A stretch of DNA of 64,000 nucleotides, from assembly GCF_000018605.1 (NCBI RefSeq), contig NC_010003.1:1092501-1156500 (forward strand), given 5' to 3'. Below the pieces are notes generated by a model. That model saw only the letters and a program-made list of their open reading frames with translations, did no database searches and was not told the origin of the DNA. The DNA comes from Petrotoga mobilis SJ95. Its GTDB lineage: Bacteria; Thermotogota; Thermotogae; Petrotogales; Petrotogaceae. Each line of letters begins with the position of its first letter. The stretch's first letter is position 1. Below, in pieces: positions 9,994-39,588 of this stretch. Position numbers and translations under genes: made by a program.

Positions 9994-10009
9994 TTCGGCA
10001 CCTCCATCT

Positions 10010-10429: not shown

Positions 10430-10434
10430 AATTT

Positions 10435-20430: not shown

Positions 20431-21823
20431 CTTTATCTCCTCTATTTGGTACTTTTACCTTTAAAAATTCTACATACGAATCATTCATCCACTTGCATTT
20501 ATCAATATCCATCAATCCATCTTCACCCGCTTTTCTAGCTCTTAAAATACAAGGCCAACAGAAATGGAGTAACACACAATCACCGCAAATTTCCCTATTG
20601 GGAGGAACAATTTTAGAATAGAAAAAAGTTTCTTCTTTGTGATCCTCAAAAAATTTCGTTGGGTTATCAGGATCGATTATTCCGATAACGTCTCTTTTTG
20701 GTTCTGACATAACACATGGTCTCACAGCAAAATCAGGACCAACGGTGAAGTTCTTCCAACCGGCTCCACAATTTTTTGAATGCTTCAATAGATCCCCAGA
20801 TTCTTCTTGTACTATGGGTATAATTCCTTCGTATTTTTTTATTACTTTGTTCCCTTCTTCAAAAAGTTTTAGTGCATATTCCTCTTTCCATTCGATATTT
20901 TTCCCTTTTCCGAAAGGAAGTGATGCAGAAAAGGTGAAAAATCTTGCGCCTAAATTCACAGACAATTCTGCAGTTTTATCCAAATGATCGATATTTTCAG
21001 GTGTTACCACCATCGCTACTCTAACAAAGAAATTGTGGTTTACCAATTTTTTGATGTTTTTAACAGTAGATTCCCAAGCCCCTTTTTTGCCCCTAAATTT
21101 ATCATGATATTCTGGATCGTAACTATCTAAGCTAACCCCCCATATTATTTTATCTGCATATGGTTCCAACTCTTCCGTTGAATTTTCTGGTAATTTAACT
21201 CCATTTGTTAGTACTCCAACCGTTATACCTCTTTCCAAGATATACTTTAAAATCTCTGTAAAATGCGGATGTAAAGTAGGCTCTCCACCAGTTATTTCAA
21301 CCATAGATAGAGTTTCTTTATTCAATTTTTCAACCATTACTTTTAATTTTTCTGAATCGATAAAAGTACTTTTTCTTATATCTTCTCTTCTATAACAGTA
21401 TTTACAATTTAAGTTGCATCCATCGGTTAGTTCTATTGACATATGTAAAGGTAGGAAAAAGTCTTTTGTTCCTCTTACATCTAAACCATCAACAGAAGGT
21501 TTATCGACCAAACTCACATGATTTCTTTCAATGGCTCTAAATAAAAATTGCCTAATTTTATCGTCATTTGAAAACATTTCAAATATTTCCTTGAGCGTTT
21601 TACTGCCGTTGCAAAGTTTAAACAATTCCACAGCATCGTGATTTATAAAAGAAGAGGCTTGTTTCAGAAACAAACCTTTTTCAATATTTTCTTTTCCATC
21701 TATTTGAATTATTCTATCTCTATTCTTCATATTATCTGATTTCACCTGTAAAACACCATATGTTGGGAATTCTAAAAGTTTGTAATGATTATTTAAAATT
21801 GCGTATTTATTGATATCATACAC
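20417..21823 (-). CDS. Radical SAM/SPASM peptide maturase with N-terminal PqqD-like region (locus A)
   Basis: 468 residues. Residues about 50-110 (HDAVELFKLCNGSKTLKEIFE...) resemble a PqqD-like RiPP recognition element. The radical SAM core carries CNLNCKYC for the SAM cluster and the GGEPTLHP motif. The C-terminal part has the extra Cys typical of SPASM auxiliary clusters (NCGAG, RPCVMSE, CGDCVLLHFCWPC, DKCKW). Such enzymes install thioether or C-C crosslinks on precursor peptides. It lies between three Cys-rich precursor genes and an ABC exporter. Similar loci exist in Thermotoga maritima (the TM1316 region) and clostridia. Confidence 0.88.
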   Translation of the reverse strand: MYDINKYAILNNHYKLLEFPTYGVLQVKSDNMKNRDRIIQIDGKENIEKGLFLKQASSFINHDAVELFKLCNGSKTLKEIFEMFSNDDKIRQFLFRAIERNHVSLVDKPSVDGLDVRGTKDFFLPLHMSIELTDGCNLNCKYCYRREDIRKSTFIDSEKLKVMVEKLNKETLSMVEITGGEPTLHPHFTEILKYILERGITVGVLTNGVKLPENSTEELEPYADKIIWGVSLDSYDPEYHDKFRGKKGAWESTVKNIKKLVNHNFFVRVAMVVTPENIDHLDKTAELSVNLGARFFTFSASLPFGKGKNIEWKEEYALKLFEEGNKVIKKYEGIIPIVQEESGDLLKHSKNCGAGWKNFTVGPDFAVRPCVMSEPKRDVIGIIDPDNPTKFFEDHKEETFFYSKIVPPNREICGDCVLLHFCWPCILRARKAGEDGLMDIDKCKWMNDSYVEFLKVKVPNRGDKDGLK

Positions 21824-22150: not shown

Positions 22151-23413
22151 ATGTATTTTGTAGGTATTGATATTTCTAAAAACTCTTTTCATTACTACAT
22201 CTCCGATTCAGGTAGGACCAAAATCGATAGTGGTAAATTCAAACAGAATATGAGTGGTTTCACCACTTTCGACAAAATTCTTAAAAAGTTCAACAAAAGA
22301 GAGATTATAATTGGTATGGAATCCACTTCTATTTACCATCAACATTTGTTTTCTTATTTACTTAAACACGATTATGATGTCCATATCATTAATCCCCTTT
22401 TGTTGAAAGAATTCAGAAAAAGTGAAACTCTTCGCCATTCTAAAAACGACAACATTGATTCCAAGCTGATCTCCATTTGGCTGAAAGAAAAGTATCCAGA
22501 CAACATCCCTTCTTCTAAGGAGATAGATAATTTCACTCAATACTCTCGCGAGATCATTAACCTTTCTGAGGAGATTTCAAGGGTTAAGAATGAAATCAAA
22601 CGTTATGTCTACCTTTTGTTCCCTGAATTGGAATCTTTTCAATCTAATATCTTTATCAAGAGTTTAATGAATTTATTGTATAACTTCCCTTCTGCAAGGA
22701 AGATCGCTACAACCAACAAAAAACAGCTTATTGATGCGATGAAGATAGATAATCAATTGTATTTCGATGAAAATAAGTTGGACCAAATCATTGAACTTTC
22801 TAAAAATTCAATAGCAAGTGGCAACGATGCGCATGAGTTAGCTCTTCAAAAAAGAATAGAATTGTTGTTCAAACTTGAATCAGATCAAAAGCTCTTCAAA
22901 GAAAAATTGAAAGAAACTTTGAACAATTCATCAAACGATGTAATTAAAAACCAGGTAGAATTAATACAATCTCTTGATGGTTTCAATGAAACAGCTTTAA
23001 ATATTGTAGCAGAAACAGGAGATATTAACCGATTCTATTCTGCTTCTGCCCTGGTGGCTTTCGTTGGCATCGATCCTCGTACAGAGGAATCAGGTCAAAT
23101 GAAAAAAGGCTGGTTCATCAATAGAAAAGGTAACAGATACCTAAGAAAAGCTGTTTACATCGCTGCCATCGTTGCTATTCAAAACAATGAATACTTCAAG
23201 AATTATTACATGAAACTACGTACTCGAGGTAAATCACATACTGTTGCTGTGTTAGCCGTAGCGGGAAAATTGTTGAGAATAATATATTCACTGGTAAAGA
23301 GTGGGAAAAAATATGATTCTGACTATCATTACAAATTACAAAATCAAGAACTGAGAGCTCATGGCAATTATACAGCAAAAAAATTAAAAAGGAAAAGAGA
23401 AATAGTAACCTGA
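22151..23413 (+). CDS. IS110 family transposase (DEDD recombinase), copy 2
   Basis: 420 residues, identical to the protein at 17040-18302, with the DEDD N-terminal domain and the Ser-containing C-terminal domain intact. The lack of any difference between the copies points to recent transposition or gene conversion. Confidence 0.95.
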   Translation: MYFVGIDISKNSFHYYISDSGRTKIDSGKFKQNMSGFTTFDKILKKFNKREIIIGMESTSIYHQHLFSYLLKHDYDVHIINPLLLKEFRKSETLRHSKNDNIDSKLISIWLKEKYPDNIPSSKEIDNFTQYSREIINLSEEISRVKNEIKRYVYLLFPELESFQSNIFIKSLMNLLYNFPSARKIATTNKKQLIDAMKIDNQLYFDENKLDQIIELSKNSIASGNDAHELALQKRIELLFKLESDQKLFKEKLKETLNNSSNDVIKNQVELIQSLDGFNETALNIVAETGDINRFYSASALVAFVGIDPRTEESGQMKKGWFINRKGNRYLRKAVYIAAIVAIQNNEYFKNYYMKLRTRGKSHTVAVLAVAGKLLRIIYSLVKSGKKYDSDYHYKLQNQELRAHGNYTAKKLKRKREIVT

Positions 23414-24736: not shown

Positions 24737-24880
24737 TTACTCTACTTCTTCCACAACACTTACAATCTCTGTTGGTTTTAAACCAGATGTGCCATTTTCT
24801 CCCCCATCATCCCCTCCAAAAACAAATATACTCCCTAACACCAGAACAGTGATCAACAAAGCAACAATAAATTTCTTCAT
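24737..24880 (-). CDS. Small exported peptide (47 residues), candidate signal peptide of locus A
   Basis: MKKFIVALLITVLVLGSIFVFGG is a signal sequence. It is followed by an acidic/Gly linker (DDGGENGTSG) and a short tail LKPTEIVSVVEEVE. GGGGGTG lies before the ATG. It is divergent from the 574-residue helical-repeat protein at 25247 and has a close paralogue at 35847-35990 with the same neighbours. The design (a tiny secreted peptide beside a cytoplasmic repeat protein) recalls peptide pheromone/RRNPP receptor pairs. That function is inferred. Confidence 0.65.
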   Translation of the reverse strand: MKKFIVALLITVLVLGSIFVFGGDDGGENGTSGLKPTEIVSVVEEVE

Positions 24881-24982
24881 CCTCTTTCACCCCCTTGAAT
24901 TATTCTTTTAATTTAAAACTAATATCTCAAATAATCCAACCTCTTATTTTAATCATACGCTTTTCCATATGATTTTCAAGTG

Positions 24983-25071
24983 TTTTTTTAATTGGCTTCA
25001 AATATGTATTGATAAAGTATTACAGAGATTGGTAAAAAAAACTTATGTTAAAATTAATTACGATGGTTTTT
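24983..25071 (-). promoter_or_regulatory. Conserved upstream block, copy in the peptide/receptor intergenic region (locus A)
   Basis: It holds GGCTTCAAATATGTATTGAT and ATTACAGAGATTGG, shared with blocks at 18574-18660 and 36092-36180. Downstream of it on the minus strand, TTGAAA-16-TATGAT forms a possible promoter for the exported peptide. Confidence 0.55.
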
Positions 25072-25098
25072 ATCTGATATAATACCTTTGTCTTTCTT

Positions 25099-25128
25099 TT
25101 GGTTATTATAAGCGAATTATGATATAAT
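25099..25128 (+). promoter_or_regulatory. Promoter of the helical-repeat protein gene
   Basis: TTGGTT (25099-25104), 18 bases, then TATAAT (25123-25128) with a TGA extension. It is followed by a leader of about 120 bases containing a CTTCAA...TTGAAG inverted repeat. Confidence 0.6.
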
Positions 25129-25246
25129 AAACTTTAGAATAATATATAGAAGCTTCAAGAGTTGTTAACATACCAAAGAAAAGGTTTTTGAAGTAAATTT
25201 TATTTTATATTTTTGTTGCTATCAGGTAAAGGAAAAGGGTGGAGAA

Positions 25247-26971
25247 ATGAACATTAAAGTATTGATTGAAATTGTGAATAAAGGACAGTTCATAAGGCCA
25301 ATTTTGAATTATGTTGCTCATTACTTAGAAAGTGATAGACCAGATAAAAATAAAAACATCGTTAATTACATAAACGTTTTGAAATTAAAATGGGATGTTA
25401 AATACGATGAAGCCCTTGAGATAATAGATGAAGAGTTACAGAGGTTGAAGAAAGGTGGCTTGTACTACCTTTTCTTGGATCAAAAAGTTCATATATTGAA
25501 TAGAATTAAACAGAAAGAGGGAGTTAAAAAAGTATTTGATGAACTAAAGGATAATTTTGATAATATACCTGTTTATGTCAGAGGACTTGTTGTAGAAACT
25601 TTAAGAAACATACATGAATTGTATTATGAACCAGATGAAAGTATGGAAAAGATAAGATATTGGAGTGAGAATTACGAACAGAACCCTGTTGATAAAGGCT
25701 TCATATTGCTATCAAAAGCAAGAGAAAAAAAGAACGAAGAAAGATACGAAGAAGCGGTTTCTTTAAACATCGAAGCATTTAAGATTTTAAAAACCGTTCC
25801 ACATCCTTCTGGTATGGTGCAAGCTTTAAATAATATATCTTGGTGGTTGAAAAATACAAAAAAAGAAAAGGCTTTAGTTTTTATTTTTCCATTGGGTTTC
25901 TATCTTGGTTACTATTTCGATGATGATAATTTAAAAGTTTTCAATTCCCTTGATACTATGTTTCAAGTACAGAAGAATAATAACGATCCTTTGGTTTATG
26001 AAACCGCCTTTATTTTTTCGAGGTGTTTGTCTCAACTAAATAAAGTGGAAAGTGAACCGATAAAAAATACTTTTAAAGATATCATTAACCAATTAAAGTG
26101 CTTTGTATTCAATTTGGATAACAACCAACACAGAAGTACACCAAAACTGAGAGATTTCATAAGGAAAGAGATAGGGAAAGAAAAGATACCCATAGATTCA
26201 ATAAACATTTCTGAAAGTGCGTTGAAAGAGTTTTTATTTGAAGAGACACAGTACATTCAACCAAGTACCTTGAGAAACATAATAGATGCTCTTGAGTTTG
26301 AAATCACCACATCCACACCTATATGTATAATCAAAGAATTGAAAAAGAAGGATATAGATAAAAAATTTGAGATAAACCTTGAAAAGTTTAAAAACCTTCC
26401 AAAAGAAAGACAAATATCAGAACTCTTTACATCTTACCTCGCTCATTACTACAAAGAAGAGATCGATCTAAAAAAGATAATTAAAGAGATAGAAGATGAC
26501 AGTTTAACTGAAGAAAGATGTGATTACTACACGAAAGAGTTAATAAACTCTATCTTTGAAAGAAATCCAAAGATAGATTTTAATTCTTTACTAACAAACG
26601 TTCAAAAACCAAAAATCTACACAAACAAAAATATAACCTTCAACGAACATCCTTTTTATTTGGGAAGGAAAGAAGTTGTAAAAAGGTTTATGAAAGACTT
26701 AAATAAAAAGAATTTAAAAGAGTTCATAGAAAATTACATTGATCTTGATACAAGACAAAAAAAGACAGTAGAAAAGTTCATAATGAATTACGGTAGGTAC
26801 TATGATTTAAAGGTAAAGGATATCCCCAAAGAATTCACACCGAAAGTACCAAAAGAGATTGATCCATTAGTGAAAAAATACACGTTGAAAAGAAAACCTT
26901 CTACCATTTCTTTTTATGTTTTTGAAGGGGATGAAAGAGAAAAGTTTGTGGAAATTATTGGCAAATTTTAA
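25247..26971 (+). CDS. Large helical-repeat (TPR-like) cytoplasmic protein, candidate peptide receptor/regulator
   Basis: A 574-residue soluble protein, almost all alpha-helical. Repeat-like pairs include DEALEIIDEELQRLKKGG, YEEAVSLNIEAFKILKT and AQLxNxxW-type helices in the first 300 residues; the C-terminal half is Lys/Glu-rich. There is no signal peptide, no classic helix-turn-helix and no enzyme motif. The N-terminal 63 residues are closely repeated in a truncated copy at 36356. It is divergent from an exported 47-residue peptide in both places. I suggest a Rap/RRNPP-like receptor that controls locus A. Family membership is not proven. Confidence 0.6.
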   Translation: MNIKVLIEIVNKGQFIRPILNYVAHYLESDRPDKNKNIVNYINVLKLKWDVKYDEALEIIDEELQRLKKGGLYYLFLDQKVHILNRIKQKEGVKKVFDELKDNFDNIPVYVRGLVVETLRNIHELYYEPDESMEKIRYWSENYEQNPVDKGFILLSKAREKKNEERYEEAVSLNIEAFKILKTVPHPSGMVQALNNISWWLKNTKKEKALVFIFPLGFYLGYYFDDDNLKVFNSLDTMFQVQKNNNDPLVYETAFIFSRCLSQLNKVESEPIKNTFKDIINQLKCFVFNLDNNQHRSTPKLRDFIRKEIGKEKIPIDSINISESALKEFLFEETQYIQPSTLRNIIDALEFEITTSTPICIIKELKKKDIDKKFEINLEKFKNLPKERQISELFTSYLAHYYKEEIDLKKIIKEIEDDSLTEERCDYYTKELINSIFERNPKIDFNSLLTNVQKPKIYTNKNITFNEHPFYLGRKEVVKRFMKDLNKKNLKEFIENYIDLDTRQKKTVEKFIMNYGRYYDLKVKDIPKEFTPKVPKEIDPLVKKYTLKRKPSTISFYVFEGDEREKFVEIIGKF

Positions 26972-27041: not shown

Positions 27042-28360
27042 TCATACAACCAACTGACTTTCTATTATTTCTTTGTAAAGGGGAGAATTTTTTAGTAACT
27101 CTTCATGTACTCCTTCTCCCATTATCTCTCCATCTTTTAATAGTATCACTTTGTCAGCTTTTCTTATCGTCGATAGTCTGTGGGATATTATAATCAAAGT
27201 CATCTCGTACTCTTTCAATTCATCGAATATTTCTTCTTCTGTCTGTGAATCTACACCAGACGTTGCTTCATCCAGTATCAATACCTTTGGTTCCCTTATC
27301 AATGCTCTTGCTATCGCTACTCTCTGCCTTTGCCCATCTGATAACTTACTTCCCCTTTCTCCTACTACAGTATCGTATCCTTCATCTAAAAGCCCTATGA
27401 ATTTATCTACCTTCGCTTTTTTTACCGCCTTCATGAATTCTTCTTCAGTGAATTCATCATCCAACATTATGTTTTCTTTGACCGTCATGTTGAATAAGGG
27501 TTCGTTACCTCTGACTAACTTTATCTTTTCTCTGATTTCTTGTAATTTGTAATCTATTATGTTTTTATTCCCTAATAGTATTTTACCGTTTGTGGGATCA
27601 TATAATCTCACAAGAAGACTCACCATCGTACTTTTGCCGGATCCACTCGTTCCTACCAACGCTACCTTTTCGTTTTTGTCAATGGAGAGATTTATGTTTT
27701 TCAAAACTATCTCGTTTCTATAATATTGATCCCTTCAATCTTTTCTCTCAGACTTTCCATGACCTTGCTGTATTCTTTTCTTTCCTTCTTTGAAGCATCT
27801 AATAATCTTTTATTGAAATGGTTTAATATCCAGTAATATAACGGTATCGTTGCAATAACTAACAAAGTAAGCTGCCAACTAAAAGTTGATAAAACAATTA
27901 AAATAATGAAAACATCTATGATGTTTAATATTATCACGGGTTTTGTTAGTACGAGAAAGTTGGCTATTTCAGCTATATCAGATGTGATTCTGGCAAGGAA
28001 ATCTCCAATTTGGCTGTCTGAGGAGTAAGCAGAAGGAATCTTTTGAACTTTTTCATATAAAGTCAATTGTTCATTCTTTATCACATCTGCTTCACTTGCA
28101 CTTGCATAATAATTTTCAAAAAAGCCCAAAACCACTTGGCCTACTACCACAGTTAAATACGCCAACATGGAAGGTAAGAGAAGAGAAAACTTGTTTTGAA
28201 ATATAACTTCATCGATCATGTATCTCAAGATATAGGGATTGGCTATGAAAAAAAACGTAAGTGGAATTGAAAAAAGATAAAGATTAAGATGAACCTTTTT
28301 GTACTTTTTTGAATATTCGAAAAATCTTTTAACGTTAGAAGAAATTATTTTTGATTTCAC
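27042..28360 (-). pseudogene. ABC exporter pseudogene with internal deletion
   Basis: The first part (28360-27707) is an ABC membrane domain of about 217 residues that stops abruptly after EGINIIETR. The second part is an intact ATPase domain (Walker A GTSGSGKST, signature LSDGQRQRV, Walker B VLILDEATSGVD). It begins in another frame right at the junction (NEIVLKNINLSI). The connecting region of about 100 residues is missing and the frames do not match, so this is a deletion with frameshift. The GTG at 28360 is behind AAGGAGGAG. It is probably a former exporter of the same peptide region. Confidence 0.8.
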
Positions 28361-28463
28361 TGGATAAATCTCCTCCTTTTTATAAGTTATTAATAGTGTC
28401 TTCAGAAAGTCTAAAACATGGATTTTCACTAACTTTTAATACCTTTAATATTAAAGATTCAAA

Positions 28464-29014
28464 GTTCTATCACGAAAATAGTGGGTAATTAAGCTAAAGT
28501 TAAATTAAGTTTATCAACGGCAATAAAGGAAAATAGAAAATATTTACTTAAGAATGTTCTTGTAATCGAATGTCTTTTTAAACTCAAGTACTAATCCCTC
28601 GGCTTGAACTGTGCCAAACGCTAACTCTTCTCAATTGTACTTCGATTTCGCCTACTCTGATTATATGAAAGAACATTCTGAATTTAAATATCTTTTAACT
28701 TAAAACCTTTGTCAATACCCAGTATTTGTGCTATAATTTTGTTGCTCATGATATCACTCCTCTCTCTCTTTTTATTTTTTTGTTTTTTGTTCTATGAGGA
28801 GTGATATCTTTTTTTACCCCTTTTGTCAAGTACCTAATCAACCATTTTTATTATACAGCCCCGTCCACATTAGATAATATTAAATGTCCGTGAAAAAGAT
28901 TGGTTAGACCAGAGACATAAATACATTCCAACCAATTCCTTATTTGAATGACAATTAATTATAGTCTAGTACGCAAGTTCCTAATTTTTCTACCTTCACT
29001 TTTTGAAAGAGATC
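28464..29014 (-). mobile_element. Internally deleted ISL3 element
   Basis: The left end (28464-28488, GTTCTATCACGAAAATAGTG...) matches the left end of the ISL3 copy at 33178. The right end (28990-29014, CTACCTTCACTTTTTGAAAG...) matches its other terminal repeat. Between them are scraps of the transposase 3' region (around 28560-28615) and a start region, read leftward from 28749, encoding MSNKIIAQILGIDKGFKLKDI. A 13-bp inverted repeat GATATCACTCCTC/GAGGAGTGATATC (28750-28762 and 28796-28808) is also inside. It ends 8 bases from the ABC exporter stop codon. Confidence 0.7.
28868..28903 (+). repeat. 36-bp repeat, copy 1 (inverted relative to 36575-36610)
   Basis: The reverse complement matches 36575-36610 at 34 of 36 bases. 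The two copies are in opposite orientation and bracket peptide locus B. Confidence 0.65.
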
Positions 29015-29022
29015 CAAATGAT

Positions 29023-30771
29023 TTATCCCATCTTCTTTCGTCCGATCTCGTTAGCACTTGATAGATAGCTTTCAATTATTCCTTTGAAAGTATCATCTCC
29101 AGACATAAGCTCACTAAAACTACCTGTTGCTGCAACCGTTCCATTTTTTAACACAAATACCCTATTTGCAAGACTAATAACATTTGGTTTATGGGAAATA
29201 ATAATCCCAGAACGTGTGGATAAATAATCTTCAAGTTTTTCAAGTAAAATACTTTCGTTTATGGTATCTAGATTAGTAAGTGGTTCGTCAACCACCACTA
29301 CATCTTTTTCAGCGTAAAATAACCTTGCAAGTTGTATCCGTTGTTTTTCACCGCCCGAAACAAAACTACCTCCTTCTCCTAAAAGTCTTCCTTTTAAATG
29401 ATCCAATTTAAGATCATCGATTACTTTTTCCAATCGTTCCTCGTCTAACTTTCTTCCCATAACGATATTGCTTTCAAGCGTTTCATTGAAAATTCCAACA
29501 GTTTGAGAGTAATATCCAACATATTTGAACACTGCCAGGGGGTAGGTCCCTTTTAATTCATTACCTAGGAGTTTTACTTCTCCTTCATAGTTTTGCTCTA
29601 ATCCAAGTAGTATATTGAGTAAAGTGGATTTTCCTTCTCCTGATAAACCTACAATAGCAATTGTTTCCCCATGCTGAACGTTTAAGGAAATTTTTTTTAG
29701 AAACGGTTTATCAGGTTCAAAACCAAAACTGACATCTTTCAGACTATATACGGGAGCCTTTGGAACCGGAAATATTTCATGCTTCGTGTAATTCTTTTGT
29801 GCATGTTCTGCTTCGTCGAAATAATTAAGGATGGTATCAAGATTTGCAGAAACACGTACTGCAATTCGGGCCAATTCCCTAAATAGGTATAAAGGTTCCG
29901 TCACAAAGGAAAAATATGTCCACAATGCCCATATTGTTCCAACGGTCATACGTCCATTAATTACTAAAAAACTTCCATATACCAAGATTATTAGACGAGA
30001 AAAATAATCTGGCAGATCAACCATCAATTTATCAAACCTTGATCTTGGTATTTCTGCTTCCACCACTGAGTCTGTAATCTTTTGGTATATTCTTTCATAT
30101 TCATTTTCACGTTTTGATTTTGCTTCTCCAGCAAAAATTTCATGGAGATTTTCGAAAGTTTCAACTATGAAATTCGTTGCTTGTCTCATTAATTCATACC
30201 CTCGGGAGTAAGGGCGATGGCTTACTCGATCAATAATATTTGTGTATAGACCTACAATTGCCACATTCACCACATACAAGAAGAAAAAGAATTTACTCCA
30301 AGCGAAAACCATTACCAAAATTAGTACCATTCGTATAAGCACAAAAATGTTGCGAATAAAACCATAATCAAGAACGACAAAAGCTTCGTTAAGTTGATTA
30401 TTAATCAAAGAGGCATAGTATGCCGAACCTTGTTGCTTAAGTTTTTTCCAAGGGAAAAAGAAAGAGAGTTTGAAAATACGATTTGATAGATCCGCGGCAG
30501 CTTTGAATTTTTCACGTAAATAAATTTGATCGCCAATGTAGGTTAAGATAAACGAGGTAGTGTATAAGATAGCTAAAAGATAAATGGAGTTCCATTCCAT
30601 TTGCATATTTATAGTTAACCCGTCTATGATGTTTCTTACCAGCAATGGAATGAAAAAACCGAATACAACTGATGATGTTGCAAGAAAGCCACCAATCAAT
30701 ATGGGTATAAGCCTTCGTTTCCCAATCAAAGAATAAAAAGATATTATCTTACGCAAGTTTGTTAAATTCAT
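29023..30771 (-). CDS. ABC exporter (fused membrane and ATPase domains), RiPP locus B
   Basis: A 582-residue half-transporter with six membrane helices in the first 330 residues. The ATPase has Walker A GLSGEGKST, signature VSGGEKQRI and Walker B VVVVDEPLTNLD. There is no peptidase domain. The ATG giving MNLTNLRKII is behind AGGAGGAG. It is likely the exporter for the Cys/Gly-rich peptide at 32780-32923, but an IS110 and a group II intron now separate them. The IS110 end lies within about 50 bases of its ribosome site, so its original promoter has probably been displaced. Confidence 0.87.
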   Translation of the reverse strand: MNLTNLRKIISFYSLIGKRRLIPILIGGFLATSSVVFGFFIPLLVRNIIDGLTINMQMEWNSIYLLAILYTTSFILTYIGDQIYLREKFKAAADLSNRIFKLSFFFPWKKLKQQGSAYYASLINNQLNEAFVVLDYGFIRNIFVLIRMVLILVMVFAWSKFFFFLYVVNVAIVGLYTNIIDRVSHRPYSRGYELMRQATNFIVETFENLHEIFAGEAKSKRENEYERIYQKITDSVVEAEIPRSRFDKLMVDLPDYFSRLIILVYGSFLVINGRMTVGTIWALWTYFSFVTEPLYLFRELARIAVRVSANLDTILNYFDEAEHAQKNYTKHEIFPVPKAPVYSLKDVSFGFEPDKPFLKKISLNVQHGETIAIVGLSGEGKSTLLNILLGLEQNYEGEVKLLGNELKGTYPLAVFKYVGYYSQTVGIFNETLESNIVMGRKLDEERLEKVIDDLKLDHLKGRLLGEGGSFVSGGEKQRIQLARLFYAEKDVVVVDEPLTNLDTINESILLEKLEDYLSTRSGIIISHKPNVISLANRVFVLKNGTVAATGSFSELMSGDDTFKGIIESYLSSANEIGRKKMG

Positions 30772-30823
30772 TTCTCCTCCTATGATGAAAATCAAGATTT
30801 TAGTAAAGAATCTATCCTATTTT

Positions 30824-31837
30824 TTATGCTAATATGAAATTATTAAAATCCTCAAAGACCCAATCGTTTTTTAAGGTCTCATAAATTATGCTTAACATCT
30901 TACGTGCGGTAGCGATTATTGCTTTACCGCTACCTTTCTTATGTTTCAACCGCTCGTAAAAACCTCTTATATATGGACTATATCTTATCGCTATCAGCGC
31001 TACTTGTACCAGGGTAGTACGTAATATCTTATCGCCTCGTTTGGTTATTCGTCCATGTCTTATACTTTCATTTGAATCATATACACGGGGTACCAGTTCA
31101 GCATAAGCACATAATTTCTTAGAATTATCAAAATCATTAATGTCACCAATATTGCTCAGAATTATTGTTGAACTTAGTTTACCTATCCGTGTTATACTCC
31201 GCAGATTTTTCTGGCCTTTCAATCCTTCTCCGTTTCCTTTTATTTTCTCTTCTATCTTCTTTATACCCTCATTTAACGACTTTATCTGGTCAACAATTAC
31301 CCCTATCTCAAACCGGCTTGTTTCACTCACTGCCGCATTTCTAACTTCTTCTAACGCCTTCTCACTAGAAAACATTTCCCGGCGAGTCGTTATTCCATAT
31401 TCCATTAATATCCCATGTATCTTATTTTTTAAGGTACTGCGTAGCTTTACTAGTTTGTTTCTTGTCTGAATTAAACTCTTTAACTCCCTATTCTCTTTAC
31501 TCATTACTCTTACCTCTGGCAATAACCCTTTGCTTAAATACTCCGCTATTATTTCCGCATCATGTCGGTCAGTCTTTTTCACACTCTCACTTATTACCTT
31601 GAACTGCGACGAATTTATTACTCGAACTTTCTTTACCTGGCTAACTATACTGTTGTAGAAAAATCTGCTGTTACCCGTTGCTTCTACTGCCACTTCTGTC
31701 TCTTTGTCTAAATTCTTTTTGAACTCTTCTATTCCTTTTTTCGTCATCGGATATTTTTTGAATATTCCTTTACCTTCTTATGTCTTCCAGTACACACTAA
31801 ACTGATTCTTGTGTAAATCTACCCCTACATACTTCAT
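30824..31837 (-). pseudogene. IS110 family transposase with premature stop at codon 20
   Basis: The frame from the ATG at 31837 reads MKYVGVDLHKNQFSVYWKT, then TAA (31780-31778), then continues in frame for 318 codons. It has the DEDD residues (GVDLHKN, AVEATGN, TDRHDAEIIAEYL) and the C-terminal Ser region (SNESIRHGRITKRGDKILRTT). The GGAGG ribosome site belongs to the upstream ATG. Restart at the internal ATG of MTKKGIEEF (31747) would lack the first catalytic Asp, so the protein is probably inactive. Confidence 0.85.
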
Positions 31838-31844
31838 CCCTTTT

Positions 31845-32043
31845 ACCTCCTATTTTTTTCGGAGTAGATTCTTTACTGGTGACTCACCATCCTCCTATTC
31901 AGGGTCTTTGCCCTATGGTGACCATTCGGTAATAGGTCTGATTAATCTCTTTTACGGGATCTTTATCCCGGTCAAGAATCCAACCTACTACCTATCCACT
32001 CCGGATATTATATTTTATTATATTTTACCTTATTTATCCGGAG
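31845..32043 (-). ncRNA. Candidate bridge RNA region of the type 2 IS110
   Basis: The noncoding leader contains nested hairpins. CACCAT (31885-31890) pairs with ATGGTG (31915-31920), flanked by GGT/ACC and enclosing AGGG/CCCT. CGGGAT (31955-31960) pairs with ATCCCG (31965-31970). CTCCGGATA pairs with TATCCGGAG. The position directly ahead of an IS110 transposase suggests a bridge RNA. The function is inferred. Confidence 0.45.
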
Positions 32044-32103
32044 TTATTGTCACCTCTTGATTTTTATCATATCATCTCCTTTATAAATGGAAATCATGTT
32101 TAA

Positions 32104-32739
32104 ATCGAGTAGGAGGTAGATAATTAATTTATCTGCCGTCCTTCCGCACCACCGTACGTACCATTCTGTATACGGCGGTTCAACAGGTTTGATGTATAAG
32201 ACCCTTCACATCGTTTCTCCCTCTTTCAGATGTAGAAGTTATACTAGGCGCTTGGTACATTATTTTCGGGCTCTCCCTTATCTTCATGTAGGAAACCTTC
32301 TAGTCGAAGTTGTATGCCTTTTCCGTATCCCTTCGCATCTTTCAAGATTCGAAACCTTCTGTTGTTCAGTCCTTCCTCATCTCTCAATGAGTACTATGAC
32401 TTCTGCTGACTTCTCAAGATTCAGCCATACATTGCTGTATGGGTTGCCTCAATAGCATATTCTTGAGATCTCCCCAGGTAAGTGCAATAACTTTCATCCC
32501 ATCTATCCGCCAGATCTACTCCGTGAAGTTCAGGGTAGCTGTTGGACTTCGTTTTGAGTGGCAAACTCGTCCACTTCACTTAGCCTTATATCTGGTTCTT
32601 GTTCATCGGACCGGGACTTTGCCTTGGGCTTCCTTCAGATTCCACCTCACGATGGACACCCTTGCCTTCGACTAGTGGTTCCCGCTACCTGGCCCACAAC
32701 GGACTTTCACCGCTTAGCTATTGCACATGCTGGGCGCAC
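32104..32739 (-). mobile_element. ORF-less group II intron (IIC-like)
   Basis: Read leftward, it opens with GTGCGCCC and runs through domain I-type sequence (GGTGAAAGTCCG, GAAGGCAAGGGTG). A domain V hairpin is at 32179-32148 (ACCGCCGTATAC...GTACGTACGGTGGT, with a CGC triad). It ends with a domain VI segment and CCTACTCGAT. It is about 636 bases long and has no reverse transcriptase gene; only a short remnant could fit in domain IV. It sits 5 bases after a terminator hairpin, the known insertion preference of group IIC introns. Splicing ability cannot be judged here; it would need a maturase in trans. Confidence 0.82.
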
Positions 32740-32743
32740 AAGG

Positions 32744-32767
32744 AAAAGAGGGGAGTCTTCCCCTCCT
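32744..32767 (-). terminator. Terminator of the locus B precursor, target site of the intron
   Basis: Read leftward, GAGGGGA (32765-32759) pairs with TCCCCTC (32754-32748), then TTTT. It lies 15 bases after the precursor stop codon and immediately before the intron. Confidence 0.82.
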
Positions 32768-32779
32768 GAAACTTTATGA

Positions 32780-32923
32780 TCATGGAAAAAATGCGGAATT
32801 ACCACCGCCTCCGCCTTTACAACAAAATCCTGCTAAGCAGCATAGACCGGCGAAGTGAAAGCATTCCCACTCGAAAATACTTAGATCCTCTTCAATATGC
32901 ACTCCCTTTCGGAGAACTTCCAT
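32780..32923 (-). CDS. Cys/Gly-rich RiPP precursor peptide (locus B)
   Basis: A 47-residue peptide. The leader-like part MEVLRKGVHIEEDLSIFEWE is followed by a core with five Cys (CFHFAGLCCLAGFCCKGGGGG) and the tail NSAFFP. It is unlike the locus A peptides in sequence but similar in size and layout. AAAGGAGGTG lies before the ATG and a terminator follows. The SPASM maturase at 34300-35667 and the ABC exporter at 29023-30771 flank it, now separated by an ISL3, an intron and an IS110. The nature of the modification is unknown. Confidence 0.72.
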   Translation of the reverse strand: MEVLRKGVHIEEDLSIFEWECFHFAGLCCLAGFCCKGGGGGNSAFFP

Positions 32924-33177
32924 GCTAATCACCTCCTTTCCATAATATGCTTAGTTACTGTCTTTAGAATTTCTAAAGCTTGTTTTAAATCAAATCTCGA
33001 GCATTCGAAAGTTCTTAAAATACACCCACCAACGTAATACACCTGATTTTCCCTAGTTCTCCTTCGGCTAGCAGCCTACTTCAATGGTAGAGATAGTTCT
33101 CTCCTATATACCCCTTCAAAACTTATTATTAGAAATTAATTACTTCTCAAGTCTTTAAACATATATAAAAAAGATGG
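32924..33177. other. Leader region of the locus B precursor
   Basis: 254 bases with no gene. It contains the ribosome site of the precursor and, around 33060-33120, a stretch with CTAGTTCTCC...GGAGAACTAG-type symmetry. That stretch could be the end of another decayed mobile element, but I cannot name it. Confidence 0.3.
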
Positions 33178-34293
33178 TTCTATCACGAAAATAGTGGGTA
33201 ATTAAGCTGGAGTTAAATTAAGTTTACCAAGGGCAATAAAGATAGTGATTTTTAAATTCTTTAATGTTTTAAACCCAAAAGCCCTTTTAGTAAATCCTCT
33301 AAGTTTAGAGTTCATACCTTCTATTTTACCGTTTGAGATATTCGTTTTCATGTGCAACAAGATACCTTCTATGTGATTTAAAAGAGTCTTAGCAGCTTTA
33401 ATCATTTCGGGTATATTTGATTTCATTACCTTTTCATACCATCGATTAAAATACTTAGCTGCATAAGAAGGTTTTTTGTAATCGAACATCTTTTTAAACT
33501 CAAGTACCAATCCGTAGGCTTGAACTGTGTCAAGATGTTGATATTCCATCAATTCATCGAGTTTAACTTTATCTTTCTTGGTAAGGTTGTTAGGATTTTT
33601 TAATAGCAAGTATTTCGTCCTTTTGAGTATCTCATGGTACCCTTTATTCTCTCTGGCTCTTACTTTATCAAGTTGGACACTTAATACATTAAGCACATGG
33701 AATTTGTCAAATATTATCTTTGCTTTGGGGAAATGTTTCCTTGCTCCAACTTTGAAAGGTACCGACATATCCTTTGAAAAGTAAAAGTCTAATATTCTCC
33801 ACAACCTATTTTGGGTTATATTATACTTTTTAGCTATCTCAGCAACCGTCATGTGATTGTACAACTCGAGGATAAACGCTTCAAACAATCAGGTGAATCC
33901 AGAGTTTTTTCGAGCCCAAGGAACCTCTACAGTCTTTGTCCCATCATCTGTTTTTATCCTAGCTACCCTCGCATGTATGTATGTTTCATATTGGAATAGG
34001 TTTAAGTGTTTCTGGCTTCTTTGAACCGTATCGTACGCACTGTAATATTTACCGTTGTATTCAAACTTTGCATCTTTTTTGAAATCCACATATATGTTGA
34101 TTGTATTTCCTTGTTGCTCTATCTTTTTTATGAACCATGGCTCTGTTATATTCAGTATCTGTTCAAAGAATTTGGGTAGCTCTTTTCTCATCTGGTATCA
34201 TCTTATGTATTTTGTGTTCTCCTATATAGTACCTGATTGTTTAATCATTTGTTCATATTACTTTTTTTCTACCCACACTTTTTGGAAGAGAAC
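33178..34293 (-). mobile_element. ISL3-family insertion sequence (defective)
   Basis: Imperfect terminal inverted repeats of about 25 bases are seen: GTTCTATCACGAAAATAGTG... at 33178 and, inverted, GTTCTCTTCCAAAAAGTGTG... ending at 34293. It holds one broken transposase gene. No clear 8-bp target duplication is seen. It is inserted 6 bases after the stop codon of the radical SAM gene and upstream of the precursor gene. It is shorter than usual because of an internal deletion. Confidence 0.82.
33202..34191 (-). pseudogene. ISL3 family transposase, nonsense codon and internal deletion
   Basis: One frame of 329 codons is interrupted by an in-frame TGA at 33891-33889, between ...WARKNSGFT and LFEAFILELYNHMTVAEIAKKYNI (helix-turn-helix region). 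Downstream, WRILDFYFSKDMSVPF joins the region of the second catalytic Asp directly (DMSVPFKVGARKHFPKAKIIFDKFHV). The segment that normally carries the first DDE Asp is therefore absent, consistent with a length below the usual 400 or so residues. The last catalytic Glu region (NGKIEGMNSKLRGFTKRAFGF) remains. The product is non-functional. Confidence 0.82.
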
Positions 34294-34299
34294 TTTTTT

Positions 34300-35667
34300 T
34301 CAATTTAAAAGCTTAGCGTACTCATGCATAGAAAAAATAATATCATCTTCTGTAAGAAAACAGGCTGTTTTGTTTGGAGAGGCCATTCTTGTTCGACGAC
34401 ACCCTCCCATGCAGATAGGAAGGAGTCTGCAACTTAAACACGGATTATCTCTACTGTAAAATAGGGACTTTTTCCATTGTGAAAAATTTTGATTGTAAAT
34501 AGTCTCACCACTAGAAGCCAGATACCCTATGCTGTGTTCTTTGCTACCGACATACGTATCACACGGGAAAAGTAAACCATCGGCTCCTATTATGTAACTA
34601 TATCTTCGTTCTGATTCGCACCAACAGGGAGTGGGCATTGGTAATAGTTCAAGCATTTTTCCATAAGGAGAGAGAAGATCTGCCTCAGGTCTGAGAGACT
34701 TTAATTCTTTGAACATCTCTAGAGCTAAAGATAACTGTTGTCGTATACCATCTTTGTAACTTAAAATATCTTCTGATAAGCTATGAATATCATTTCTAGT
34801 GGTTTCAAAATTATACACTGGACGAAAATACATGATAAATCGATGGTCGTTTCCAAAGTCTTTCACAAATCTTCGAGCCAAATTTTGAACGGATTGAAGC
34901 GTACTTCTTAGGAAATTAACTCTTATTGCAAGATTGAATTTTAATTCTTGAGAGATATTGTGAATGCTTTTCAGATTATTATAAATTCTTTGGAAAGTAG
35001 GGCCTCCGTTTTTGAGTACACGAAGTTTATCATGAGTTGATTTTTCTCCATCGAGAGTTACTTGAAAATCATTAATTCCAGCATGGACCAATTGTTTAAA
35101 TATATTTGAATCTAGAAAATAACCATTTGTTACAATTGATCCACTAATATTAATTGGGAATTTTTCACAAAGTTCTTTTACCCTTTTATGGAAATTCAAA
35201 ATTGCATTGGTTGCCAGGAGAGGTTCACCACCGAACCACAAAATCTTTAGAAATGTTTTATTCCCTTGTTTATAATTTTCTAAAGCCATCCGTTCCACTA
35301 ATCGCAATACAGCATCATATACCTCCGTCTTCATCAGTTTATTCCGCTTTCGATACTGAAAACAATAAGGACAAGCAAAATTACACGCTTCAGCCGGAAG
35401 TAAGGTTAAACTAATTAAAGACGAATCATTAATATGTTTGTTGTGCCATTCTTGTATTTCAACTATTTCATCCTTTTCTTCAGGAATTAAAAAGCCCTCT
35501 GTTTTCAACATCATTATGACATCGCTTGGTAAGTTTTCTTTTGGGTTATTCAAACTTTGTAAAATATTTTCCTTCACCGCTGCAACTGCCCCTGTTTTGG
35601 TGTTGTACAAAAGAAGTTTTCCATCTTTTATAGGAATTTTGAAATTATAATTACTTTCTCTTATCAT
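34300..35667 (-). CDS. Radical SAM/SPASM peptide maturase (locus B)
   Basis: 455 residues. The N-terminal part (YNFKIPIKDGKLLLYNTKTGAVAAV) looks like a short substrate-recognition region. The radical SAM core has CNFACPYC and WFGGEPLL. The C-terminal SPASM-type Cys include PCWCESE, FPCDTYVGS, NPCLSCRLLPICMGGC and a final Cys in KTACF. This resembles enzymes that crosslink Cys-rich precursor peptides. It is not closely similar to the locus A maturase. It starts a minus-strand unit leading to the precursor gene, now interrupted by the ISL3 copy. Confidence 0.88.
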   Translation of the reverse strand: MIRESNYNFKIPIKDGKLLLYNTKTGAVAAVKENILQSLNNPKENLPSDVIMMLKTEGFLIPEEKDEIVEIQEWHNKHINDSSLISLTLLPAEACNFACPYCFQYRKRNKLMKTEVYDAVLRLVERMALENYKQGNKTFLKILWFGGEPLLATNAILNFHKRVKELCEKFPINISGSIVTNGYFLDSNIFKQLVHAGINDFQVTLDGEKSTHDKLRVLKNGGPTFQRIYNNLKSIHNISQELKFNLAIRVNFLRSTLQSVQNLARRFVKDFGNDHRFIMYFRPVYNFETTRNDIHSLSEDILSYKDGIRQQLSLALEMFKELKSLRPEADLLSPYGKMLELLPMPTPCWCESERRYSYIIGADGLLFPCDTYVGSKEHSIGYLASSGETIYNQNFSQWKKSLFYSRDNPCLSCRLLPICMGGCRRTRMASPNKTACFLTEDDIIFSMHEYAKLLN

Positions 35668-35701
35668 TTAATTCTTCACTCCTTCCATTTTGTTATTGTT
35701 G

Positions 35702-35732
35702 ATAATATCTCTACTACACTACTTAGTAGCAA
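35702..35732 (-). promoter_or_regulatory. Possible promoter/operator of the locus B maturase
   Basis: Read leftward, TTGCTA (35732-35727) is followed by an AT-rich -10 candidate (GATATT or TATTAT, 17-19 bases away). The palindrome CTACTTAGTAG (35719-35729) overlaps the -35 box. Confidence 0.4.
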
Positions 35733-35846
35733 AAAATCTTAAATTTTTTCTCTTTCCTTCAAAAACTTATCTAGATAATTTCTTAAATCTTTTAAGCTTT
35801 TTAAAAGCGTTGTTTTTTGTAGAGAGTAAATGACCCAAACAAGCAT

Positions 35847-35990
35847 TTACTCTACTTCTTCCACAACATTTACAATCTCTGTGGGTTCTAAACCACTTGT
35901 CTTATCTATTCCATCATCATCTCCTCCAAAAACAAATATACCCCCTAACACCAGAACAGTGATTAACAAAACAACAAAAAATTTCTTCAT
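35847..35990 (-). CDS. Small exported peptide (47 residues), paralogue in locus B
   Basis: MKKFFVVLLITVLVLGGIFVFGG is a signal sequence. The acidic linker DDDGIDKTSG follows, then the tail LEPTEIVNVVEEVE. The signal and the last 14 residues are nearly the same as in the 24737-24880 peptide, while the linker differs. It is divergent from a truncated copy of the helical-repeat gene. Its retention next to a dead receptor would matter if the peptide still signals to the locus A receptor. Confidence 0.65.
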   Translation of the reverse strand: MKKFFVVLLITVLVLGGIFVFGGDDDGIDKTSGLEPTEIVNVVEEVE

Positions 35991-36091
35991 CCTTCCTCAC
36001 CCCCTTAGACTATTCTTTTAATTTAAAACTAATATCTCAAATAATCCCATCCCTCATTTTAATCATACGCTTTTCCATATGATTTTCAAGT

Positions 36092-36180
36092 GTTTTTTAA
36101 GTGGGTTCAAATATGTATTTATAAAGCATTGCAGAGATCGGTCAAAAAACTAACGTTAAAATTATTTACGATGATTTTTA
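36092..36180 (-). promoter_or_regulatory. Conserved upstream block, copy in locus B
   Basis: It has GGGTTCAAATATGTATTTAT and ATTGCAGAGATCGG, matching the blocks at 18574-18660 and 24983-25071. It lies upstream of the exported peptide gene. Confidence 0.55.
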
Positions 36181-36355
36181 TCGGATATAATGCATTTGTC
36201 TTTCTTTTAGTTATTATAAGAGAGTTATGATATAATGAACTTTAGAATAAAATATAGAAGCTTCAAGTGTTATTAACATTCCAAAGGAAGGGTTTTTGAA
36301 GTAAATTTTATTTTATATTTTTGTTGCTATTGGGGAAAGGAAAGAGGGTTGAGAA

Positions 36356-36547
36356 ATGAACATTAAACTACTGGATAAAATTGTGAGTAAAGGACAGTTC
36401 ATAAGACCTATTTTGAATTATGTTGTCCATTATTTAGAAAGTGATAGATCAGATAAAAATAAAAACATCATCAATTACATAAACGTTTTAAAATTAAAAT
36501 GGGATGTTAAATACGATGAAGCCCTTGAGATAATAGATGAAGCCTCC
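36356..36547 (+). pseudogene. Truncated copy of the helical-repeat receptor-like gene
   Basis: The first 63 codons (MNIKLLDKIVSKGQFIRPILNY...DEALEIIDEA) closely match the start of the 574-residue protein at 25247. Homology then stops at about 36543 and unrelated sequence follows, including the 36-bp repeat at 36575-36610. The upstream intergenic region and the divergent peptide gene are also duplicated. The remaining frame would end after 80 residues. Confidence 0.8.
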
Positions 36548-36574
36548 GCTCCCTATTGCGCATGTATGATCTAT

Positions 36575-36610
36575 CCAATCTTTTTTACGGACATGTAATA
36601 TTATCTAATG
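36575..36610 (-). repeat. 36-bp repeat, copy 2 (inverted relative to 28868-28903)
   Basis: 34 of 36 bases match the reverse complement of 28868-28903. It lies about 30 bases past the breakpoint of the truncated helical-repeat gene. Confidence 0.65.
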
Positions 36611-37949: not shown

Positions 37950-38201
37950 GTCAACTACCCACCGTCTAAAGACGGGGGCTTGCAAAAGCCTTAGTTGACT
38001 ACCCTCAGCCGATTGAAGAAACGGGCTTCCGCCTCTTAAGGAAGAAGAAACGGGCTCACGCCTCTAAAGGAAGATCATCGGGCTACGTTATATAGGTCAT
38101 AACACCTTCGGATGTTTCTCCTAGTCTGTCGCTCTGTTGTTTAGCTTTAAACAATCCTGAGGGGTAGGGATAGTGAGCTAAACGTAAAAAGCCTATATAA
38201 C
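37934..38201 (+). ncRNA. Candidate omega RNA of IscB, with guide derived from mazG
   Basis: The region ahead of iscB is noncoding and highly structured. GTCAACTA (37950-37957) pairs with TAGTTGAC (37992-37999), enclosing CCGTC-TAAA-GACGG and GGCTT-GCAA-AAGCC hairpins. Two near-identical units of about 29 bases follow (GAAGAAACGGGCT...; 38014 and 38045). GTTATATAGG (38088-38097) pairs with CCTATATAAC (38192-38201) around further hairpins. Omega RNAs of IscB lie 5' of the gene, with the guide at their 5' end in flanking DNA. Here that would be the last 16 or so bases of the mazG fragment. Exact ends are estimates. Confidence 0.7.
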
Positions 38202-39588
38202 ATTGGGGAAGGAGAATAACTCCATTAAGGAGATGCACTTTATGTTAGTGTACGTTTTAAACAAATACGGGAAACCTCTTATGCCTTGTAAACCTTCAAA
38301 GGCAAGAAAACTACTTAAAGAGGGAAAAGCCAAGGTTGTTAGAAAAGAACCTTTTACTATTCAATTACTCTATGGTAGTAGTGGTTATAAACAACCTATT
38401 ACTTTAGGAGTAGACGCAGGAAGTAAAAGTATAGGGTTGTCTGCTACTACTGAAAATAAGGAACTTTTTGCAGCAGAAGTTGAAATAAGAGATGATATAC
38501 CTAAACTTATATCTCAGAAACGACAGTATCGTAAAGGTAGACGTTTCAGAAAAACAAGGTATAGGAAACCACGCTTTTTAAACCGTGTCCACAGTAGAAA
38601 AAAACAGAAACAGGCTGACGCCACACAGCCTTACGGCAGACAAGGGAACTGGCTTGCACCGTCAGTAGAACATAAAATAAAGTCGCACATTAAACTGATC
38701 GATCTAGTTCATAGCATACTTCCTATTACAACGATTGTAGTAGAAGTTGCAAGTTTCGATATACAAAAGATTAAGAATCCTAACATTGAAGGCAAACAAT
38801 ACCAACAAGGTGAACAATTAGATTTTTGGAATGTAAGAGAATATGTTCTTTGGAGAGATAATTATACCTGTCAACGCTGCAAAGATAAGTCCAAAGATAA
38901 GAGGCTCAATGTTCACCACATCGAAAGTAGACAAATAGGTGGGAACGCACCTAGTAATTTAATTACATTGTGTGAAACATGTCATAAGGATTACCACGAT
39001 GGAAAAATTAAATTGGATTTTAAAAGAGGACAAAAATTTAAAGATGCTACCTCTATGAATATTATGAGATGGACATTATACAATAGATTGAAAGATTTGT
39101 ATTCTAACGTTCATCTAACTTATGGATATATCACTAAAAATACAAGGATACAAAATAGTTTAACTAAAACACATAGAATAGACGCCTTATGTATTAGTGG
39201 TCATCCTCAAGCAAAACAATTAGATTACTATTATCACATTAAAGAAGTTCGACGACACAATAGACAAATACACAAAGCTAAAATTCTAAAGGGAGGAATA
39301 AGAAAACTAAACCAAGCACCTTATCTAGTACATGGTTTTAGATTGTTTGATAAAGTAAAATACAAGGGTATTGAATGTTTCATATTTGGAAGACGTTCAA
39401 CTGGATATTTTGATATAAGAAAACTTGATGGTACAGTAATTCATAGAAGTGCAAAAAGCAAAGATTTAATCTTGGTAAGTAAAGCTAAAACTCTATTATG
39501 GGAAAGGAGGGAAAATTCTGCATTCCTCTCACCACTTCCTTATCTGCCGTAAGGCTGTTCTCTGGTGAGTCTCCTGCAGATATTTTTC
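37950..39588 (+). mobile_element. IS200/IS605-like IscB element inserted in mazG
   Basis: The boundaries are set by rejoining mazG in frame (13 codons, then 39589). The element carries the omega RNA region, iscB, and a right-end hairpin around TCTGC...GCAGA (39543-39580). There is no TnpA transposase, so movement would need one in trans. There is no target duplication, as expected for this class. The 3' flank begins ATGAAA. Confidence 0.72.
38242..39552 (+). CDS. iscB: IscB RNA-guided nuclease
   Basis: 436 residues. The PLMP domain (VLNKYGKPLMPCKPSKARKLL) is at the N-terminus. RuvC-I follows (TLGVDAGSKSIGLSA), then an Arg-rich bridge helix (KRQYRKGRRFRKTRYRKPR) and RuvC-II (TTIVVEVASFD). The HNH domain has two CxxC pairs and a double His (CQRCKDK, NVHHIES, LCETCHKDYH). 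RuvC-III is KTHRIDALCISG. All expected catalytic residues are present. The C-terminus would contact the target-adjacent motif. The ATG at 38242 follows AAGGAG by nine bases; an earlier frame start adds 13 unlikely residues. IscB is the ancestor class of Cas9. It nicks or cuts DNA matched by the omega RNA guide. Confidence 0.93.
   Translation: MLVYVLNKYGKPLMPCKPSKARKLLKEGKAKVVRKEPFTIQLLYGSSGYKQPITLGVDAGSKSIGLSATTENKELFAAEVEIRDDIPKLISQKRQYRKGRRFRKTRYRKPRFLNRVHSRKKQKQADATQPYGRQGNWLAPSVEHKIKSHIKLIDLVHSILPITTIVVEVASFDIQKIKNPNIEGKQYQQGEQLDFWNVREYVLWRDNYTCQRCKDKSKDKRLNVHHIESRQIGGNAPSNLITLCETCHKDYHDGKIKLDFKRGQKFKDATSMNIMRWTLYNRLKDLYSNVHLTYGYITKNTRIQNSLTKTHRIDALCISGHPQAKQLDYYYHIKEVRRHNRQIHKAKILKGGIRKLNQAPYLVHGFRLFDKVKYKGIECFIFGRRSTGYFDIRKLDGTVIHRSAKSKDLILVSKAKTLLWERRENSAFLSPLPYLP

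Follow-up and report, generated by a model that had tools for sequence, protein, structure and literature searches.

The closest described parallels to the system reported here are the Rgg/SHP-controlled clusters of streptococci for ribosomally synthesized and post-translationally modified peptides (RiPPs) made by radical S-adenosylmethionine (SAM) enzymes (RaS-RiPPs), in which, according to passages of two reports, a peptide pheromone and its intracellular receptor switch on a radical-SAM RiPP operon (PMC13361665, PMC8092268). We propose a similar arrangement for locus B of Petrotoga mobilis SJ95, which lies at 28464-36610 of a 64,000-nucleotide stretch (NC_010003.1, positions 1,092,501 to 1,156,500), hereafter the window, in a genome consisting of a single contig of 2,169,548 bp (label G000). 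Unlike the Rgg/SHP systems as presented in those passages, the Thermotogota systems combine receptors of ~514-605 amino acids (aa), a helix-turn-helix (HTH) domain placed after tetratricopeptide repeats (TPRs), a Sec-type propeptide and very varied maturases. Among 106 thermophilic bacteria and 21 archaea, one survey found no complete peptide-based quorum-sensing system; it names Thermotoga maritima as the sole thermophile for which peptide signalling has been reported (PMC6022435). We give a probability of about 0.7 to the reading that locus B is a RiPP operon under a pheromone-receptor-type module, its own receptor dead and the signalling role putative. Across the Thermotogota loci examined, the receptor family is recurrently linked with a divergent small open reading frame (ORF), a shared motif and radical-SAM genes.

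The published RRNPP signature (Bernard et al. 2023, PMC10075063) provides a yardstick, as far as the passage defining it goes. It calls for a propeptide of 10-100 aa (35-73 aa here, 47 in locus B), for genes adjacent within -60 to 400 bp (139-385 bp in 36 of 50 receptor copies) and for a TPR receptor with a Cro/C1-type HTH, TPRs being detected here in the receptors of loci L086 and L090. It also expects the propeptide to be secreted by Sec; by a rule of our own, the candidates here show a basic start and a hydrophobic stretch. The same passage expects a receptor of 250-500 aa, against mostly 514-605 aa in our family, and an N-terminal HTH in transcription factors, which is central in ours; the scan it describes covered Firmicutes and viruses, and the present family lies outside those. 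Homology to solved receptors was not found in a profile search of PDB sequences. Because of receptor length, HTH position and the lack of a solved-receptor match, we do not file this family as RRNPP.

In 2013 Frock and colleagues are said to have found the T. maritima operon TM1315-TM1319, reportedly comprising a 31-aa Cys peptide, a radical SAM enzyme and ABC (ATP-binding cassette) transporters, strongly induced in stationary phase; no receptor-propeptide pair is reported to have been described there. One of our loci (L086, in genome G090) has a receptor gene (9311-10918, minus strand) and, divergently, a 57-aa exported-type ORF, a 31-aa three-Cys ORF and a 463-aa radical-SAM gene, a set that we take to fit that operon; the precursor and maturase of TM1315-TM1319 differ from those of locus B. 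P. mobilis SJ95 itself has a described thuricin-CD-like radical-SAM cluster, Pmob_0674-0678 (Murphy et al. 2011, PMC3132745), whose gene lengths (464, 430 and 197 aa), as given in the passage on it, are those of our locus L111 (G000:C1:712000-731900). L111 also has a receptor and propeptide, and locus B is another locus, unmentioned in that passage. The 197-aa precursor proposed there (PMC3132745) lacks Cys, and the Cys-rich small ORF of L111 fits better. Within the open-licence literature searched no paper joins Thermotoga and RRNPP, RRNPP and Thermotogota being co-mentioned in one phage-plasmid review, and Thermotoga, radical SAM, stationary phase and TPR were not found together.

The locus B operon and its uninterrupted counterpart

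The operon of locus B is encoded on the minus strand (29023-35990) in the order exported-type peptide, maturase, Cys-rich precursor and ABC exporter, with the remains of a regulator facing it:

35847-35990, minus strand: exported-type propeptide of 47 aa, first operon gene, candidate pheromone precursor
34300-35667, minus strand: radical SAM/SPASM RiPP maturase of 455 aa, frame intact, Radical_SAM 50.5 bits (cut-off 29.5)
32780-32923, minus strand: Cys-rich precursor of 47 aa, ATG at 32923, with a C-x6-CC-x4-CC core and a conserved EWEC
29023-30771, minus strand: ABC exporter of 582 aa, frame intact, domains ABC_membrane and ABC_tran
36076-36091, plus strand: promoter motif CATATGATTTTCAAGT, whose reverse complement overlaps the -35-like TTGAAA of the propeptide promoter
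36356-36598, plus strand: truncated regulator/receptor of 80 codons facing the propeptide, 75% identical over 76 aa to the product of 25247-26971

Searches of 103 Thermotogota genomes, the window's own included, identified one uninterrupted version of this operon, in genome G063, with the same order of propeptide, maturase, precursor and exporter. The precursor start follows directly upon the maturase stop and the exporter comes next, with identities to the window of 59% for the maturase (E 1e-184; the next best match beyond G063 has E 1.9e-48), 49% for the precursor and 64% for the exporter. Locus B is thereby confirmed as a real RiPP operon, in a Thermotogota form propeptide-maturase-precursor-exporter; by itself it is a further example of a known RiPP operon type. 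The initial annotation had read the locus, from the window's sequence alone, as one in which a RiPP precursor is served by a dedicated SPASM maturase and an exporter, all with intact frames, and had called for an uninterrupted relative. G063 supplies that relative, conserved and contiguous, with such a peptide beside the maturase, so that the refuting condition set there, a maturase lacking a neighbouring peptide of this kind, does not apply. The domain matches of the maturase in the window exceed their cut-offs. The initial account of the biosynthetic genes therefore stands, and what it missed is the upstream exported-type peptide and the truncated TPR-HTH regulator. In five other genomes of the genus, searched with precursor and maturase queries, locus B was not found. 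Adjoining the operon in G063 is a second, degraded locus (L035 3258-6118, minus strand) with a 44-aa exported-type ORF, a 31-aa Cys ORF like that of G090 and broken radical-SAM ORFs.

The precursor ORF is preceded by a strong Shine-Dalgarno sequence, ggaaaggaggtgattagcATG, and has a homologue (E 1e-10) in 1 of the 102 other genomes searched, G063, the other five matches being weak (E 0.03-0.1; just two without an internal stop). Both precursors share LRK, EWEC and five Cys spaced C-x6-CC-x4-CC, and in both a hairpin followed by T residues lies downstream (by eye in G063). The two CC pairs, single further Cys and GGGGG run initially annotated in the 47-aa window peptide are all present; only the window precursor has the GGGGG run and the C-terminal tail, neither being present in the G063 homologue, so the run does not belong to the peptide's conserved features. 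Differences between the two genes at codon positions 1, 2 and 3 number 16, 11 and 24 over 41 codons, as would be expected of a translated, constrained frame; the ratio of nonsynonymous to synonymous substitution rates (dN/dS) is unusable against G063 because synonymous sites are saturated.

In the maturase, the CxxxCxxC motif (C95, C99 and C102) and the seven Cys of the SPASM pattern (C350, C369, C410, C413, C419, C423 and C436) are invariant between window and G063, and the SPASM domain model TIGR04085 scores 54.5 bits (cut-off 27). The best NCBIfam model, TIGR04463, gives 211.7 bits against a curated cut-off of 525 and thus falls short of equivalog level, and the further nearest models (Clo7bot, CefB, geopeptide and FlmE/OhkG, then PapB) are likewise all far under cut-off; thioether formation is for that reason argued from kin. 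The maturase would cross-link the C-x6-CC-x4-CC core, probably through Cys thioethers, and the exporter, in which a domain scan found no Peptidase_C39, would secrete the product. Two genome-contig scans, one with the maturase sequence alone and one with its alignment to G063, returned no relatives, and tblastn against plasmids gave general relatives under 60% identity (53 records; 24-29% among the matches listed).

Only about the first 61 residues of the truncated regulator are homologous to the intact copy in the window (574 aa, 25247-26971, plus strand, opposite locus A); the locus B receptor ends there, and its own control is therefore lost. Paralogous receptors might still act on locus B, as its propeptide and motif remain undamaged. 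This propeptide has the same tail as that of L067, a locus with an intact receptor from a different genome of the genus. A promoter-like match (36089-36062) precedes the propeptide, such matches numbering 25 in the region versus 30 in shuffles. Locus A (24737-26971 and 18766-21823) has the same receptor-propeptide module with an intact receptor and an exact motif at 24966-24981. It also holds two small Cys ORFs, and an IS110-type ORF of 420 aa is present twice, at 17040-18302 and at 22151-23413, with identical translations.

A receptor family linked to small divergent ORFs, a motif and maturases

Matches to the receptor family (E<=1e-5) occur in 58 of the 103 Thermotogota genomes, ten of them, some partial, in the genome of the window. 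A homologue of 523 aa (26% identity, E 3e-55) occupies the same place in G063, an alignment of 31 members covers the whole length, and intact receptors are mostly 514-605 aa. Two members exceed Pfam gathering thresholds on their own: the L086 receptor for TPR_12 (38.9 bits, gathering 30.1), HTH_26 (29.7, gathering 22) and HTH_3 (26.4, gathering 23), and the L090 receptor for the same domains at 37.8, 33.8 and 32.6 bits, respectively. TPR_12 (residues 148-212) precedes HTH_26 (285-334) in a total of 535. Among the 31 aligned members at E<=0.5, TPR_12 is seen in 10, HTH_26 in 10 and HTH_3 in 8. A viral-contig scan with the regulator found no relatives, and tblastn of the L086 regulator against plasmids gave no match. 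Miniature remnants, joining residues ~1-77 closely to ~512-574, were observed in G050 (C5 56904-57347, 61436-61879 and 80546-80935; C14 13126-13524) and represent either an internal deletion that has recurred or a small element present in several copies.

For association tests we used 50 receptor start positions from 62 receptor-family ORFs, in loci that are mostly the best receptor-family matches with their flanks and hence a subset of all matches. Fragments, and ORFs whose start is missing or at a contig end, were dropped (L080 2492-3838, L081, L085, L086 415-684, L099, four fragments in L104 and L111 7523-7738), and two halves in L092 and in L109 were counted once each; six of the 50 have less than 2 kb of upstream DNA (L071, L078, L096, L100, L105 and L109). 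Controls came from 20 regions of 20 kb each, chosen arbitrarily in G000, G090 and G063. A strict scan demanded a divergent ORF of 30-75 codons, 100-420 bp from the receptor start, with a basic start, a hydrophobic stretch and Shine-Dalgarno-like purines; candidates were already known from earlier, differently set and looser scans when this rule was fixed. Such an exported-type ORF lies beside 36 of 50 receptor copies versus 4 of 213 control genes. The propeptides so found have 35-73 aa and are divergent from the receptor, with 139-385 bp between starts. The small peptides are built alike: a basic start leads into a hydrophobic stretch, followed by F-A-D, F-G-G-D or a similar sequence and then by a tail that varies and is mostly acidic. 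This tail lacks Cys in 29 of the 31 compared. Those of G063 and L094 were found only by an earlier, differently set scan.

The gap between receptor and small ORF contains the motif ATATGRTTTTCAA (in receptor orientation) exactly in 29 of 50 cases, in families f1, f2, f8 and f10, versus none of 215 control upstream regions and one of 215 on the other strand. It was derived from alignments A4 and A5, whose rows support it by construction; rows outside them include L095, L096, L098 (family f2), L083 and L110. Genome-wide, the 16-base form of the motif has eight exact sites in P. mobilis SJ95, seven of them just upstream of a receptor gene or remnant, and with up to one mismatch 12 forward and 1 reverse sites versus 2 and 2 for a control pattern. 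All three exact sites in G019 are just upstream of a receptor gene or remnant, and those in G063 (two) and G090 (three) are in or beside receptor loci.

For 25 of 50 copies a radical-SAM ORF lies within 5 kb on the divergent strand, whereas none of the 50 has one upstream on the same strand and 7 have one downstream; where 5 kb is available on both sides, the divergent side has one in 19 of 33 loci versus 4 of 33. None occurs in the 400 kb of control DNA. The profile used was home-made and seeded from ORFs with CxxxCxxC and GGEP in all loci, controls included. Ten of the maturases downstream of the module have as best models Clo7bot (2), TIGR04463, PapB (2), AlbA, CcpM (2), CefB and TIGR04133, all under the model cut-off; these downstream maturases are diverse, and one control module therefore precedes many peptide chemistries.

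Insertions and surroundings of locus B

The initial annotation also placed an ISL3 element, a group II intron and an IS110 element between the genes of locus B, and all three were recovered, together with a terminator:

33177-34295, minus strand: ISL3-family insertion, transposase in two in-frame pieces (33202-33888 and 33889-34191), outer ends approximate
32746-32767, minus strand: intrinsic terminator right after the precursor, 9-bp stem, then a T-rich tail
32104-32741, minus strand: group II intron RNA, its 5' end GTGCGCCC placed by eye a few bases past the terminator stem
30824-31747, minus strand: IS110-family transposase, NF033542 221 bits (cut-off 140)

The insertions sit in the gaps on either side of the precursor gene. 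ISL3 splits the maturase from the precursor, and terminator, intron RNA and IS110 stand between precursor and exporter; this combination has probably uncoupled the exporter from the rest of the operon. Some group II introns insert after terminators. An Rfam scan of the locus gave intron matches only (RF02001 and RF01998 at 32483-32656 and 32369-32446, and a sub-threshold Intron_gpII, RF00029, at 32104-32180), and the ORF list of the region contains no intron-protein ORF at the intron.

An inverted repeat of 44 nt (91%) flanks locus B at 28868-28911 and 36567-36610, the right arm lying at the receptor truncation. The end point 36610 of the segment initially annotated is also the end of this repeat. 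Further copies of the repeat are found in L170 and L171, past the receptor stop in L110 and where the cluster ends in L107. We set aside a transposon bounded by this repeat, as copies also occur singly elsewhere and their orientation and context vary. Next to locus B, an ABC transporter gene (27042-28429, minus strand) is split into two ORFs; L069 has a 528-aa ORF with a stretch near-identical to it. Further along, a HEARO RNA (RF02033, 155 bits) lies within 37950-39552 (plus strand), ahead of a 449-aa ORF (38203-39552).

Competing explanations and significance

We consider it reasonably probable that the Thermotogota own a large family of intracellular pheromone receptors, built of TPRs, a Cro/C1 HTH and then a conserved C-terminal region, with cognate propeptides and a motif, controlling RiPP and other operons. 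The small peptide would be exported by Sec and trimmed to its C-terminal part, which is mostly acidic. After re-uptake it would bind to the TPRs of the divergent receptor, and the receptor's Cro/C1-type HTH would then act at the motif, which covers the -35 region of the promoter before the propeptide gene, thereby switching the operon on with cell density. Without its receptor, the operon of locus B may be off, uncontrolled or driven in trans by an intact paralogue.

Several observations weigh against this proposal. The strict peptide scan fails for 14 of 50 receptor copies; other scans offer candidates for four of these (L035, L094, L080 and one of 26 aa in L097), and ten have no convincing peptide (L071, L072, L073, L076, L090, L093, two in L095, L096 and L109). 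Export was judged by our own rule of hydrophobicity and charge. No radical-SAM gene lies within 5 kb of 25 of 50 receptors (for 8 of these, under 4 kb of upstream DNA was available), and the association counts are not independent trials, because the copies are related. The window's intact receptor alone has no Pfam TPR or HTH match, a profile search of PDB sequences has no RRNPP receptor among its six matches (best E 0.19), and AlphaFold run on the window regulator without an alignment gives a mean predicted local distance difference test (pLDDT) score of 39.7. As to cross-link chemistry, the best maturase model is far short of its cut-off (TIGR04463, 212 versus 525). Receptor-propeptide signalling is itself deduced from sequence.

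The alternative that fares best concerns locus B only, namely that it is a dead relic, no longer expressed or used, whose intact frames reflect recent damage. The truncated receptor, the ISL3, intron and IS110 between the genes, the split ABC gene nearby (27042-28429), the 44-nt repeat at the truncation point and the failure to find the locus in the other five genomes of the genus searched all point this way. Against it stand the undamaged maturase, precursor, exporter, propeptide and motif, and the presence of paralogous receptors elsewhere in this genome (ten matches). We regard this as a tentative possibility of less than even odds. The regulator is certainly lost and the biosynthetic frames are intact, and frames alone are insufficient to tell survival from decay, which the locus was initially held to illustrate.

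A real RiPP operon whose TPR-HTH protein and small peptide are not a signalling pair is, in our judgement, unlikely. Here the peptide might have an immunity, membrane or leader function, with the regulator sensing something else; TPR-HTH regulators can bind partner proteins, and some of the small ORFs are long or off-pattern (L094 and L097). Set against this, an ORF with a basic start, a hydrophobic stretch and a mostly acidic, Cys-poor tail recurs beside the receptor, 139-385 bp away, in four families or more, and the motif is shared between receptor and small ORF even where no radical-SAM gene is nearby. That the 47-aa precursor is a chance ORF next to an intron is barely credible: its frame is short and adjoins the intron, but G063 already contradicts the idea with a homologue (E 1e-10) of identical Cys spacing in the expected operon slot, and its strong Shine-Dalgarno sequence and coding-like substitutions speak against it too.

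On the preferred reading, that of a RiPP operon under a pheromone-receptor-type module, locus B amounts to a natural experiment: its receptor was lost, and operon, propeptide and motif were kept. The candidate signalling system can be tested, since its receptor, propeptide and promoter motif have been specified; it has matches in 58 of 103 Thermotogota genomes, and its candidate control module is linked to radical-SAM peptides that form an unexplored set. Because of receptor length and taxon, hyperthermophile quorum sensing of this kind would escape the published RRNPP signature. If the proposal is true, the receptor-propeptide family would be a new form of intracellular peptide signalling, and would also explain the stationary-phase response reported for the TM1315-TM1319 region of T. 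maritima.

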